Under the pieces are notes generated by a model. That model worked only from the letters and a program-made list of their open reading frames with translations. It was not told where the DNA came from and searched no databases. The position numbers were made by a program, and so were the translations under genes. A stretch of DNA of 64,000 bases from Beggiatoa alba B18LD. Its GTDB lineage: Bacteria > Pseudomonadota > Gammaproteobacteria > Beggiatoales > Beggiatoaceae. Position 1 is the first letter of the stretch. Each line of letters starts with the position of its first letter. Location of the stretch: the NCBI RefSeq assembly GCF_000245015.1, contig NZ_JH600070.1:1814637-1878636 (forward strand), in the 5' to 3' direction. Positions 1,229 to 60,528 of this stretch are shown here, in pieces.

Positions 1229-1879
1229 TTAGCCAACCAGTAAAACGTGTAATCGTCTAGGGCCATGTGCACCTAATTGAATGGTTTGTTCAATATCGGC
1301 AGTGCGTGAAGGTCCTGTAATAAAATTGATGGTGCGAGGAATATTTGCATGGGTTTGTCGCAGTTTTTCCCAAACTGATTCGATATGAGGTAGTAAATCG
1401 TTGAGTGATAAAACAACGATATGTACATCTGGTAAAAAATTTAATGTTGTTGGGCTAGCAGGGCTAGATAACATTACGATGCTACCTGTTTCAGCAACTC
1501 CCGCAAAGGCTTGGGTGACGCTGATGACATCATCTTGTTGTGCCGTGCGATAGGCAACGTTTAAAAAGGTACTTTCCCATGCTAAATGCTTGAGATGAGC
1601 ATCCATCACTAATTGCGCGGGTAAACTTTGTGTACTTAGGTAACGACTGATACAGGCAGGGATTTCTTGCTCGTGGGCAATTTGTTCATAACTTCCCGCC
1701 ACTTTTTCCAATTGATAGATAAATTTATCGCGTAAAGAAAGTTGTAACGTAGGTTGTTCATGGATGGAATGTTGTTGCAAGCGATTTTCTAACCGTTGTT
1801 GGGTTAATTCATCAAGAGCAGTTTGCCTACCTAAAGAGTGGCGAATTTGAGTAAAAATAGTGTCGCGGGCGGTTGTCAT
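1229..1879 (-). CDS. lutC: LutC-like LUD-domain protein (lactate utilisation protein C)
   Basis: A 216-residue LUD-domain (LutC/YkgG family) protein. In Bacillus, LutABC oxidises L-lactate to pyruvate through an iron-sulfur complex at the membrane, and LutC is the small non-Fe-S subunit. The family's C-terminal signature is visible: AFAGVAETGSIVM around residue 130, then LPDVHIVVL and the FITGPSRTADIEQTIQLGAHGPRRLHVLL block that closes LutC proteins. It overlaps lutB by 4 nt, which indicates translational coupling. No LutA-like CCG-domain gene follows or precedes, so the complex is either split in the genome or uses another partner. Confidence 0.88.
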   Translation of the reverse strand: MTTARDTIFTQIRHSLGRQTALDELTQQRLENRLQQHSIHEQPTLQLSLRDKFIYQLEKVAGSYEQIAHEQEIPACISRYLSTQSLPAQLVMDAHLKHLAWESTFLNVAYRTAQQDDVISVTQAFAGVAETGSIVMLSSPASPTTLNFLPDVHIVVLSLNDLLPHIESVWEKLRQTHANIPRTINFITGPSRTADIEQTIQLGAHGPRRLHVLLVG

Positions 1880-3303
1880 TGATTAAACCCTTTTTGTAAG
1901 CGTTTCCAGTGAGACATAAAGGTTTCTCCTTGAGGGGCGGGCATATCACGACTGACAGTCCAAGCACTGGCAAAGGGTAGCTGTTGAAAATAACCATGTT
2001 TTTTTCCGAAAAAGCGTAAAATTTTTGCTTTTATGGCTGTTCCTGCATGATATAAACGGGGGTGTTTTGCAAAGAATGCCCAGAGGGTTAATGCCCAGCG
2101 GGCGCGACCGTGTACTAAGCCTTGTTTATATTGGCGAATACGGTGATGGCGTAGCATGGTTGGTAATGGAATGCTCATCGGACAGACTTGTTGACAGCGT
2201 CCATTGAGTGTGCAGGCGTTGGGTAAATCGCCTGCTTCTTGTAATCCTAGCATAATCGGTGTGAGTACCGAGCCCATAGGTCCTGGGTAAACCCAGCCAT
2301 AGGCATGTCCACCAATTGAGCCATAGACTGGGCAGTGGTTGAGACAAGCCCCACAGCGGATGCAACGTAGCATGTCGTGGAATTCATTGCCTAACATGCG
2401 TGAGCGTCCATTATCAAGTAGGACAACGTGAAAGGCTTCCGCGCCGCTGATATCGCCTGTGCGTTTAATCCCTGTGGTTAGGGTGGTGTAGGCAGTCATT
2501 TCTTGCCCTGTCGCGCTGCGTCCTAAAAGACGAATGATAGTTGTCATGTCTTCTAACGTGGGGATAACTTTGTCTATGCTCGCAGTGACGATATGCACAC
2601 GGGGTAAGCAATTGGTTAAATCGCCATTGCCTTCATTGGTAACAATGACGGTAGAGCCTGTTTCTGCGACAAGAAAATTCGCGCCTGTAATGCCTACATC
2701 AGCAATTAAATATTTTTTACGTAACACTTGGCGAGCTTCATTGACGAGTGCCGCGCGTTCTGTTTGTTTTTCAGTGAGTCCATATTGTTGATGATGCTGA
2801 TGGAATAATTCGGTAATTTGTTCGCGGGTTTTGTGTACCGCAGGGGCAATGATATGGCTTGGCGGTTCTTTGGCGAGTTGAATGATATATTCGCCTAAAT
2901 CAGTTTCTACGACTTCAAATTGTTCTGCTTCTAAGGCTTCATTGATGGCAATTTCTTCGCCTATCATTGACTTACCTTTAGTAATAACTTTGGCATTGGC
3001 ATCTTTACAGAGTTTGACGATGATATGACGTGCAGTCTCGGCGGTGTCTGCCCAGTGGACTTGCCCACCGCTTGCAACCACTTGTTTTTCAAATTGTTCT
3101 AAATAGAAATCTAAATACTTGAGCGTATGCTCTTTAATTTCTTTTGCACGTGTCCGTAAGGCTTCGAATTCTGGTAATGCTTGTACAGCAAGACGACGTT
3201 TGTCGATGAAACCTGTTTTAGCATTTGCCATTGCTTTTTGTAACTGCACATCACGCAAAGCAGCCGTTGCACGCTGTTTAAAATCATGGGATTGGGATTG
3301 CAT
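1876..3303 (-). CDS. lutB: LutB-like iron-sulfur protein (lactate utilisation protein B)
   Basis: About 475 residues. The N-terminal two thirds are a LUD domain (SMIGEEIAINEALE, GITGANFLVAETGS, PRVHIVTASIDKVIP). The C-terminal third holds two ferredoxin-type clusters, CIRCGACLNHCPVY and CTLNGRCQQVCP, the usual 4Fe-4S arrangement of LutB/YkgF. Its role is electron transfer during L-lactate oxidation. I chose the ATG at 3303, preceded by CGAGGAG, over an in-frame TTG at 3327. It is cotranscribed with lutC. The expected third member LutA (two CCG domains) is absent from both flanks. Confidence 0.9.
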   Translation of the reverse strand: MQSQSHDFKQRATAALRDVQLQKAMANAKTGFIDKRRLAVQALPEFEALRTRAKEIKEHTLKYLDFYLEQFEKQVVASGGQVHWADTAETARHIIVKLCKDANAKVITKGKSMIGEEIAINEALEAEQFEVVETDLGEYIIQLAKEPPSHIIAPAVHKTREQITELFHQHHQQYGLTEKQTERAALVNEARQVLRKKYLIADVGITGANFLVAETGSTVIVTNEGNGDLTNCLPRVHIVTASIDKVIPTLEDMTTIIRLLGRSATGQEMTAYTTLTTGIKRTGDISGAEAFHVVLLDNGRSRMLGNEFHDMLRCIRCGACLNHCPVYGSIGGHAYGWVYPGPMGSVLTPIMLGLQEAGDLPNACTLNGRCQQVCPMSIPLPTMLRHHRIRQYKQGLVHGRARWALTLWAFFAKHPRLYHAGTAIKAKILRFFGKKHGYFQQLPFASAWTVSRDMPAPQGETFMSHWKRLQKGFNQ

Positions 3304-3551
3304 TATAGTAAAAACTCCTCGATCCAATCTCGTTACGGGGGGATGTCGTTTGCATCTCTCAACATCTGAGTATGGTCACTCATTATTTTAAGCATAGATG
3401 CGAATCGATTCACGGGAAAAATAGTCAGGTGTATTTATATCAAGTTTGAAGCAATACTGAAGAAACATTGCGGTTTGTAACAGTAGGATGAATGGGGGTT
3501 AAAACCCCGTTCAGAATGGCGGGAGATTAGAAAGCGTTGGGTCGCTAAAAA

Positions 3552-57930: not shown

Positions 57931-58197
57931 ATGAGTGATACAGTGATTGTTGCTATTGTGCTTGGTGTTGTTGTCATTGCTGTTGCTGTTGTTTTTCTCT
58001 TAAAAGACCGTATTAGCTCGGCAAATTTCAAAGCCAGCAAAAAAGGGTTAGAAGGCGGATTAACCGCACATGAACAAGCAACTTCTAGCATTAGTCGTAA
58101 TAAAATCAAGGGTGATGGGAATACATTAAAAACAAGCAACGCTGGAAAAGTCGACGACAATGAGATAGAAGGAAATAAAAATAAATTAGGCGAGTAA
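57931..58197 (+). CDS. Small single-pass membrane protein with NxIxGxxN motifs
   Basis: 88 residues. Residues 4-24 form one membrane helix (TVIVAIVLGVVVIAVAVVFL). A basic linker follows (KDRISSANFKASKKGLEGG). The C-terminal third has two copies of the pattern N-x-I-x-G-x-x-N: NKIKGDGN (57-64) and NEIEGNKN (77-84), the latter within KVDDNEIEGNKNK. The next gene's product carries KIDNNEIEGNGN, so the two proteins share this element. The stop is 7 nt before that gene, so they are cotranscribed. Not a family I can name; a membrane partner that pairs with the NTPase through the motif is inferred. Confidence 0.65.
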   Translation: MSDTVIVAIVLGVVVIAVAVVFLLKDRISSANFKASKKGLEGGLTAHEQATSSISRNKIKGDGNTLKTSNAGKVDDNEIEGNKNKLGE

Positions 58198-58204
58198 ACA
58201 AACT

Positions 58205-58984
58205 ATGACAGAAACAATGGCGAATTATTACAAAGAACGCCAAGCCTTTTCCGCGCTGTGGCAAGCCCAATGTGAAAAGCGAATTGTGTTTTATCGGGGA
58301 GAGTCAGGCAGTGGAAAGTCAACATTATTAAAGGCTTGTCGGCGACAAGTTCCTGACTCCGTGCATAAAATCGTTGTGAATTGCGCAGATGCTGAAATTC
58401 GAGTTGTTGATATTTTTTCCTTATTAATTGATAAGTTAGGCTGGGAACGACTCGGCGCGTTTCGACAACAACTCGCTAGTTTAAGCCCACAAGTCATTGG
58501 CAAAATTGATAATAATGAAATTGAAGGCAATGGCAATATTATTCAACAGGTGATTAATATCGGTAGTCCTGAAGAGCGTAAAGACCGACAAGCGCATTTA
58601 ACAGATGCGTGGTTGCAGGATATGAAAAGCGTGGATAAGCCTTTGTTATTTATAATAGATACTTATGATAAAAGTATCGAAGAAATGCAAAATTTTTTAC
58701 ATCGGCTATTAACGCGAATGGTGCGCTTGCCTGCGTTGCGCTTGGTGATGGCGGGGCAAAGTGTGCCGAATGTAGAAACCTGTAGCGAGTGGACAGATTG
58801 TTGTGATTTGTATGATTTATATGGGGTAAAAGAAGCCGAACATTGGTTGCCTGTGGTAACGGAAATGAAACGACGTTTTCCTGATGGCATTGAGCCACAT
58901 TCTTATTTAGCAGGAATTTGTGGGGCATTTCAAGGTCGCCCTGCTGACATTAAAAAATTTATTGAATCTTTCCCACGAGTTTAA
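58205..58984 (+). CDS. P-loop NTPase with inserted NEIEGN motif
   Basis: 259 residues. Walker A is FYRGESGSGKSTLLKACRR (residues ~29-47); a Walker B-like strand is PLLFIIDTYDKS (~146-157), with a following RLVMAGQSVPN sensor-like strand. Between them, residues 100-120 hold KIDNNEIEGNGN and then IIQQVINIG, a low-complexity Asn/Gly/Ile segment placed as an insertion. The fold looks like AAA_16/STAND-type NTPases, yet the protein ends shortly after the ATPase (IKKFIESFPRV) without its own repeat domain, which is provided by the next gene 5 nt downstream. Proposed role: nucleotide switch of a signalling or defence module; inferred. Confidence 0.7.
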   Translation: MTETMANYYKERQAFSALWQAQCEKRIVFYRGESGSGKSTLLKACRRQVPDSVHKIVVNCADAEIRVVDIFSLLIDKLGWERLGAFRQQLASLSPQVIGKIDNNEIEGNGNIIQQVINIGSPEERKDRQAHLTDAWLQDMKSVDKPLLFIIDTYDKSIEEMQNFLHRLLTRMVRLPALRLVMAGQSVPNVETCSEWTDCCDLYDLYGVKEAEHWLPVVTEMKRRFPDGIEPHSYLAGICGAFQGRPADIKKFIESFPRV

Positions 58985-58989
58985 AAAAT

Positions 58990-60528
58990 ATGGATAACAA
59001 ATATTTAGAGTTTTTAACTCGTGTGCAAGCGGCGGATGAATCAGAACGCCCTGCTTTGCTTTTGGAATTCAGTCTTGCGCAATTATCGCCTAAAATCCGC
59101 GCCGCAGTTGAAGCAGCCGCCATTCCACATTTTTTTGATAAGCATTTTTTAAATGCCCTCTTAGCAGATTCTTTAACAGAAGCAGAATTTCAAGAATTAA
59201 CCCAACTTTCTTTTATTGAAGCCTATCCTAAAGATAGTTTTTTTAATGTCCATGAAAAAACTCGCCTTTTATTATTGGATAAATTATGGAAAGAAAATCC
59301 TGATAATTATCGTGAAATCAGCCAGCGTGCTTTTCAGTATTGCCAACAACAAGACCAAGAATCGACTACATGGCGAATTGAAACGCTTTATCATCAAGTG
59401 ATTGCAGAGCCAGAAATTGGGGTGGATGAGTTATATGAAACAGCACGCAAATGGAACAACCCTCCTAATTTTGCCTACGATAAAATAGAAGTTTTAACGC
59501 GTACTTTGCATGAACATATTGATGATAACCGATTAAATACTTTAGGAAAGCATACAGTTTTATATTGGGAAGGAGTTATTGATTCTATATATTCCCGTCC
59601 TTTTGATGCAAAGACAAAGTTGCAACAAATCAACTTAACATTAGAAACAAGAGACTATTTAAAAGCGAACTGCCTTTGGCGATTAGGCAATGTGCATCTA
59701 AATTTATCAGAGCTAAGGGAAGCGCGGGGACAGTATGAGCAAGCCCTGCCCATTTTTCGCCAGATTGGCAAGAAACTTGGTGAGGCAAACTGCCTGAAAA
59801 GACTAGGTGATATACATCTACGTTTATCAGAGTTAGGGAAAGCACAAGGACTGTATGAACAAGCCTTGTCCATTTTCCATCTCATTGGCGCGAAACTCGG
59901 TGAGGCGAACTGTCTTCAAGGTTTAGGCGATGCACATCTAAGTTTATCGGAGCTCGTGGAAACGCAGGGACTGTATGAACAAGCCCTGCTCATTTACCGT
60001 CTGATTGGTGCTAAACGCGGTGAGACACAGTGTCTGAGAAGTTTGGGCGATGTGTATCTACGTTTATCGGAGTTAGAGGAAGCACGGAGACTGTATGAAC
60101 AAACTCTGTCCACTTTCCGTCTGATTGGCGAGAAAATCGGTGAGGCGAACTGCCTTCTAGGTTTAGGTGAAGTATGTTTAAAACAAACTGAACTTGAACG
60201 AGCTGAAAAGTTAATTAAAGATGCACAATGCATTTATCAAGCGATTCATGAACCTGTTGGACAAACTGATAGCCTCAAAATGTTAGGATTACTCGCAATA
60301 CAAACAGGCGAATATGCCAGTGCACAGAATTACTTTGAGCAAGCACAACAACAATTTAAAAAAATTGCCAATCAAGAAGGTATCGCCGAAACCCTAGAAG
60401 CCTTTGCCGAATTGCACACTGCCCAAAATCACCCCGACACCGCCCGCGACTATTGGCAACAAGCGATTGCACTTTATGAAAAACTTGGCATGAGCAAACG
60501 CGCGGATAAATGCAGACAGAAAATTTAA
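58990..60528 (+). CDS. TPR-repeat protein, third gene of the module
   Basis: 512 residues. The N-terminal 210 residues are helical and unassigned (FLTRVQAADESERPALLLEF, YPKDSFFNVHEKTRLLLLDK). Residues ~217-420 contain five nearly identical 40-residue TPR units (GEANCLKRLGDIHLRLSELG, ...LYEQALSIFHLIGAK), repeated every 120 nt in the DNA (59667, 59787, 59907, 60027, 60147). Further TPRs complete the C-terminus (GEYASAQNYFEQAQQQFKKI). In NLR-like systems such repeats sense the trigger; here they would serve the NTPase in trans. The conserved unit length at DNA level allows gain or loss of repeats. Confidence 0.8.
   Translation: MDNKYLEFLTRVQAADESERPALLLEFSLAQLSPKIRAAVEAAAIPHFFDKHFLNALLADSLTEAEFQELTQLSFIEAYPKDSFFNVHEKTRLLLLDKLWKENPDNYREISQRAFQYCQQQDQESTTWRIETLYHQVIAEPEIGVDELYETARKWNNPPNFAYDKIEVLTRTLHEHIDDNRLNTLGKHTVLYWEGVIDSIYSRPFDAKTKLQQINLTLETRDYLKANCLWRLGNVHLNLSELREARGQYEQALPIFRQIGKKLGEANCLKRLGDIHLRLSELGKAQGLYEQALSIFHLIGAKLGEANCLQGLGDAHLSLSELVETQGLYEQALLIYRLIGAKRGETQCLRSLGDVYLRLSELEEARRLYEQTLSTFRLIGEKIGEANCLLGLGEVCLKQTELERAEKLIKDAQCIYQAIHEPVGQTDSLKMLGLLAIQTGEYASAQNYFEQAQQQFKKIANQEGIAETLEAFAELHTAQNHPDTARDYWQQAIALYEKLGMSKRADKCRQKI

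Follow-up and report, generated by a model that had tools for sequence, protein, structure and literature searches.

A three-gene locus of Beggiatoa alba encoding a split NLR-type ATPase and a small membrane protein with a shared short motif

Motif-coupled NLR and effector pairs

In the HET-S/NWD2 system the effector carries two 21-aa repeats and the cognate NLR a single copy, R0, and NLR amyloid signalosomes have also been proposed for filamentous bacteria (PMC7889193). The bacterial BASS/Bell-NLR pairs (Dyrka et al. 2020) are covered in that review mainly for actinobacteria and cyanobacteria (PMC7889193). RHIM and PP motifs have a G-phi-Q-phi-G core (PMC7885112), while EADs are small modules that link NTPases to effectors in multicellular bacteria including Beggiatoa (Kaur et al. 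2020; PMC7159879).

A gene trio of Beggiatoa alba B18LD, located in a 64,000-nucleotide stretch of contig NZ_JH600070.1 (the window), encodes a small membrane protein (SMP), a STAND-type NTPase and a TPR protein. It resembles HET-S/NWD2 of Podospora, an HRAM system, in that the genes are neighbours, the effector C-terminus bears two pseudo-repeats (about 21 residues there, 20 in the trio) with a conserved glycine, and the NLR has a single copy along with superstructure-forming repeats. By this analogy the trio plausibly works like HET-S/NWD2. It differs in its effector, an SMP that matches no Pfam or NCBIfam family and has a single TM helix instead of a HeLo domain, in a receptor copy situated inside the ATPase domain rather than at the N-terminus and in an NLR divided over two genes; moreover, it is bacterial and an amyloid step in it is putative.

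Compared with the BASS/Bell-NLR pairs as described in that review, the trio shares with them an adjoining small membrane-targeted protein, a C-terminal motif in common with the NLR and a filamentous bacterial host, but its motif lies within the NTPase and not at the NLR N-terminus, and its host family is gammaproteobacterial. The SMP, a short protein, gave no match to a Bell domain in Pfam, among whose entries no Bell profile could be recognised. The trio has in common with RHIM, PP and BASS3 a short motif that includes N and G residues and follows a hydrophobic/polar pattern, and an internal motif position is known for RHIM. However, the consensus of the trio, N-x-phi-x-G-x-x-N-x-phi, does not contain the G-phi-Q-phi-G core, on which RHIM membership is rejected, and Pfam returned no RHIM match; the RHIM-like character suggested in the initial annotation is thus not supported in sequence. 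The broader likeness to amyloid signalling between NLRs and membrane effectors, proposed at the same time, is strengthened as an analogy by the 20-residue double repeat facing a single NTPase copy. HELLP/PNT1, which couples a PP motif to an NB-ARC-TPR NLR, likewise pairs a TPR-sensor NLR with an adjoining membrane-acting effector through a common motif, and the trio departs from it in motif type, motif position and the split gene. EADs are folded domains, whereas the trio has a short repeat motif. By the features tested, with BASS compared by description, the trio is not a RHIM system and does not formally belong to BASS or HRAM.

Layout and distribution of the trio

The trio is flanked by genes for an aspartyl-tRNA synthetase (named from its sequence) and a peroxiredoxin and forms a tight operon, with gaps of 7 nt between the SMP and NTPase genes and of 5 nt between the NTPase and TPR genes. 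The three open reading frames are present as first described, all on the plus strand (Table 1). A promoter scan at the trio gave results no better than shuffled sequences.

Table 1 Features of the trio in window coordinates
Feature	Coordinates	Strand	Basis
SMP, 88-aa small membrane protein	57931..58197	+	Open reading frame; one predicted TM helix
SMP TM helix, residues 5-24	57943..58002	+	Hydrophobic run in sequence; helix in AF2 model
SMP juxtamembrane segment F-K-A-S-K-K-G-x(6)-A, residues 33-46	58027..58068	+	SMP alignment
SMP repeat R1, NKIKGDGNTLKTSNAGKVDD	58099..58158	+	20-residue R1-R2 spacing in 4/4 SMPs
SMP repeat R2, NEIEGNKNKLGE	58159..58194	+	Repeat spacing; tail-NTPase match
STAND-type NTPase, 259 aa	58205..58984	+	Pfam AAA_16, AAA_22; orthologues in two trios
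Walker A, GESGSGKST	58298..58324	+	Sequence; alignment
NTPase insert R0, GKIDNNEIEGNGNIIQQVIN, residues 99-118, between Walker A and Walker B	58499..58558	+	Motif alignments
Walker B, LLFIIDT	58643..58663	+	Sequence; alignment
GxP (putatively GLPL-like) motif near NTPase C-terminus	58934..58942	+	P246 invariant in four homologues
Winged-helix-like + TPR protein, 512 aa	58990..60528	+	TPR match; orthologues in both other trios
Winged-helix-like region, residues 27-110 of TPR protein	59068..59319	+	Profile match to L033

Searches covered the order (43 genomes, 25 genera), the class (369 genomes) and a sample of the phylum (398 genomes); GTDB likewise counts 25 genera in Beggiatoaceae (PMC11172852). 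Two other genera of the family, represented by G021 (L021 4457-7359, minus strand) and G025 (L022 4867-7529, minus strand), contain the trio in the same gene order, so that it is conserved beyond B. alba and occurs in three genera and 3/43 genomes of the order. In G021 and G025 the start of the TPR gene overlaps the end of the NTPase gene by 4 nt, and throughout the three genera any gap between trio genes is shorter than 10 nt. The flanking genes differ between all three genomes. The NTPase family is found in 3/43 order genomes, always with adjoining SMP and TPR genes (3/3), and the N-terminal region of the TPR protein is full-length in the same three. The SMP is present in a fourth order genome, that of the sister species G001, as an orphan between fructose-bisphosphate aldolase and nif-type genes (L019 3694-3969); the order-wide search found no NTPase of the trio family in that genome.

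One further NTPase homologue was recovered from the class, in G215, and none was added by the phylum sample, where a single weak match (G113) is an unrelated regulator. Other weak matches (L005/L027, L006/L028, L011, L023/L026) are unrelated P-loop proteins, namely ABC ATPases and a SARP-type regulator, and matches on Kovacikia and Prosthecochloris plasmids have only a TIR domain or a generic P-loop in common. Relatives of the NTPase were absent from the viral contigs, plasmids and phages searched and those of the SMP from the plasmids and viral contigs searched, which gives no indication that such elements carry the genes. In PADLOC the trio fits no described anti-phage system, giving weak P-loop and generic TPR matches only.

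A split NLR-type receptor

The NTPase scores 34.6 bits against Pfam AAA_16, above the family cut-off, and shares 37-39% identity with its orthologues in the two other trios. Residues G32, S34, G35, G37 and K38 of Walker A are invariant in four homologues, and Walker A, Walker B and the GxP motif, which may be GLPL-like, are conserved in the alignment, as in P-loop NTPases of the STAND/NLR type. A PDB profile search with the NTPase returned generic P-loop GTPases and kinases only, and its single-sequence AF2 model (pLDDT 35.6) is not reliable.

The NTPase chain stops shortly past its GxP motif, and the winged-helix-like region and the sensor repeats are encoded by the next gene. The product of this gene matches TPR_12 (Pfam, E=3e-34) and begins with a conserved non-TPR region of approximately 210 residues. 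A profile of this N-terminal region matches L033 of the same genome (E=5.6e-5), a 772-aa fused AAA_16-TPR protein in which the matched region follows AAA_16 and precedes the TPRs; its position and pattern suggest a winged helix. As the NTPase ends after GxP and the N-terminal region of the next gene lies inside the fused L033, the two genes are, judged from their sequences, one NLR-type (STAND) chain cut between the ATPase and the winged-helix-like region. The two observations agree with the split NLR envisaged in the initial annotation.

The G215 homologue, from another gammaproteobacterial family, consists of a TIR domain fused to the same NTPase family (L020 5226-6572), and its contig ends at this gene, ahead of where a TPR gene could show. 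The motif core is missing from it and no SMP-like ORF lies ahead of its gene, which is what an effector provided in cis would lead one to expect. This single case would fit a swap between a cis effector and one recruited in trans.

The small membrane protein and the shared motif

The SMP has one predicted TM helix, in agreement with the membrane partner proposed in the initial annotation. The juxtamembrane segment accounts for 5/7 invariant columns of the SMP alignment, and the single-sequence AF2 model shows one long helix (residues 2-54) followed by no structure. The C-terminal tail should be cytoplasmic, because positive charges follow the TM helix (positive-inside rule).

The near-identical element noticed at the outset in tail and NTPase, GKVDDNEIEGNKN at 58144-58182 and GKIDNNEIEGNGN at 58499-58537, withstands a shuffling control: tail and NTPase align locally with a score of 57, where shuffled tails give 25.4±4.6 (0/1000). 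Among 97 proteins from the window and other loci of the genome, none matches the SMP tail as well as the neighbouring NTPase does. The weaker third copy that had been pointed out, NKIKGDGN, precedes the second by exactly 20 residues, and the starts of the two pseudo-repeats keep exactly this distance in all four known SMPs, with the pairs NKIKG/NEIEG (B. alba), NKIKG/NDVEG (G001), NLFLG/NKFVG (G025) and VRITG/VEITG (G021). The NTPases carry single copies, NEIEGNGNIIQQV in B. alba, NSLIGFKNRLQV in G025 and a partial NVAQWGNENQIHV in G021.

The motif is conserved beyond B. alba, but the refuting conditions set in the initial annotation give a mixed picture. The G025 tail matches its cognate NTPase with a score of 38 against 25.2±4.2 for shuffled tails (p=0.011), whereas the G021 pair scores 19 (p=0.95, not significant); in G021 the N..G..N signature has disappeared from the repeats of the SMP, while the NTPase insert keeps part of it (G-N-E-N-Q-I). 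Perfect covariation of tail and insert is therefore rejected, and with only three trios known covariation rests on few events. Comparison of the 13 motif codons between tail and insert gave 5 identical, 5 synonymous and 3 non-synonymous, and 5/10 conserved residues use different codons, which argues that the likeness is old or selected rather than a recent DNA copy. A profile of the SMP repeats only, which is underpowered, reached E=0.26 for the B. alba insert and E=10 for that of G025, and a motif profile found no match in the PDB.

The insert might instead be an ordinary variable loop whose likeness to the SMP tail reflects convergence of low-complexity N/G/K/E/I sequence. Both regions are rich in these residues and 12-74% of shuffled tails also match best in the insert; given this shared composition the match position is partly expected, and after the shuffle control it was downgraded, so that the score and not the position carries the evidence. 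Convergence is also favoured by the G021 pair and by the flanking N-Q-I kept in the TIR-fused homologue, on account of which the element may have a structural role in part. It is rendered less likely by three 0/1000 results, that of the B. alba pair and two more against the L066-type proteins described below, in two genomes. It also sits poorly with the 14 occurrences of the motif pattern against 0.65 expected by shuffling, in a protein set that is partly motif-selected. We consider convergence distinctly unlikely.

A second family of motif-bearing membrane proteins

A profile of tails and inserts retrieved a second family, comprising L066 of B. alba, L053 and L061 of G001 and L060 of G025. 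These proteins of about 135 aa consist of a coiled coil, the motif (INNNQINGNNNKIQIIVNQW), a TM helix and a Cys-containing tail. The gene is followed by one for a secreted TPR protein, the N-terminus of which resembles the Cys tail (≤1/1000 shuffles). The B. alba NTPase insert scores 56 against the L066 motif over 18 residues (shuffled 24.7±4.5, 0/1000), and the G025 insert 41 against L060 (shuffled 23.1±3.9, 0/1000). Full-length L066-type proteins and signature-bearing SMPs occur in the same 3/43 genomes (B. alba, G001 and G025), a suggestive co-occurrence in which two of the three genomes belong to one genus. The L066-type protein is probably linked to the motif network of the SMP and the NTPase.

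The L066 module spans 1498-3405 of its locus (contig C2, near 2520238). In L066, L053, L061 and L060 the tail and the secreted TPR N-terminus have a common G-x-C-N-x-[VL]-[VI] element, which could possibly be a motif pairing outside the cytoplasmic membrane. G021, whose SMP has no signature, encodes in place of the L066 type a protein with trypsin, TM and Cys tail parts beside a TPR gene (L068 853-2311); here and in L067 of G029 a trypsin-like peptidase replaces the coiled coil and motif, the TM and Cys tail module is seemingly the same as in the L066 type, and L068 directly adjoins the secreted TPR-type gene. Many proteins of these genomes (L073, L075-L084) start with a recurrent coiled coil, LMQEKLxxLExAxxLETDPxxKFxLKHQIEELKxQI, for which the scans gave no specific Pfam model. 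It is joined to TIR (L076), STAND NTPases (L083, L084) and an EAD7 domain (L075), and is followed by related short elements such as VGAVITGDGNTLNISI (L073 554-1758, L075 1501-2010, L077); the gene neighbouring L073 bears a similar VVATGDHLNINVHLHQ stretch.

The SMP might belong primarily to the L066-type pathway of secreted TPR protein, TM protein and motif, with the NTPase-TPR pair recruited secondarily. The orphan SMP of G001 is accompanied in its genome by two L066-type proteins but by no NTPase of the family, and the common distribution of SMP signature and full-length L066-type proteins points in the same direction. Against this, the SMP adjoins the NTPase in three genera and, in the loci read, adjoins no L066-type gene. 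This order of recruitment seems improbable.

The main rival is a stoichiometric membrane tether, in which motif copies pair one to one, as strands or a beta-hairpin, and so hold the NTPase-TPR complex at the membrane, and the SMP acts as tether or sensor with neither amyloid nor killing. An SMP with charged tails and no recognisable effector domain would suit such a role, as would the position of the motif beside a TM helix in the L066-type proteins as well. A simple contact nevertheless leaves unexplained why two equally spaced repeats face one copy and why the same motif appears in three protein types, and the tether is regarded as possible, if rather doubtful.

A model for motif-coupled signalling

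To the reading of the trio as a split NLR/STAND ATPase and winged-helix-like/TPR sensor coupled to the SMP by a homotypic beta-type motif we assign an even chance. It is proposed that the TPR half would sense a cue and that the ATPase, judging by its family, would then oligomerise. The clustered R0 inserts could act as a nucleus on which the SMP tail with R1-R2 is templated, as the repeat layout suggests. Least certain of all, the clustered TM helices might permeabilise or depolarise the inner membrane, with an outcome of the abortive-infection type.

This signalling module is favoured by the recurrence of the trio in three genera with dissimilar flanks, by the tail-insert scores, the 20-aa spacing and the residues kept despite codon divergence, and by the matches of the inserts to L066 and L060 together with the same-genome co-occurrence. 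The restriction of the NTPase, within the order, to genomes where SMP and TPR genes adjoin it, the motif-less TIR fusion and the HET-S/NWD2 precedent speak for it as well. Counted against it are the internal receptor copy, since bacterial amyloid motifs are described at NLR N-termini, the abundance of K, E and D in SMP tails, which is unusual for an amyloid core, and G001, which keeps the SMP without an NTPase of the family, as well as the small number of trios, the non-significant G021 pair, the low scores of the SMP-repeat profile and the N-Q-I of the TIR fusion. A bolder reading, which we think unlikely, is that of a new amyloid-type motif family with the receptor copy inside the STAND ATPase domain, where the nucleotide state would expose or hide the seed. 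The same motif would tie the TM protein and its secreted TPR partner to the SMP, forming a network from outside the membrane to a cytosolic NLR.

Significance

The gene layout, in which the NLR is split, the motif sits within the ATPase and the putative effector is an 88-residue protein with one helix, is without description in the literature cited here. Its parts are small enough for direct study of peptide seeding, ATP gating and toxicity, and the trio would bear on the question of what role bacterial amyloid signalosomes play. If the proposed coupling is true, motif templating between NLRs and effectors would extend to filamentous gammaproteobacteria.
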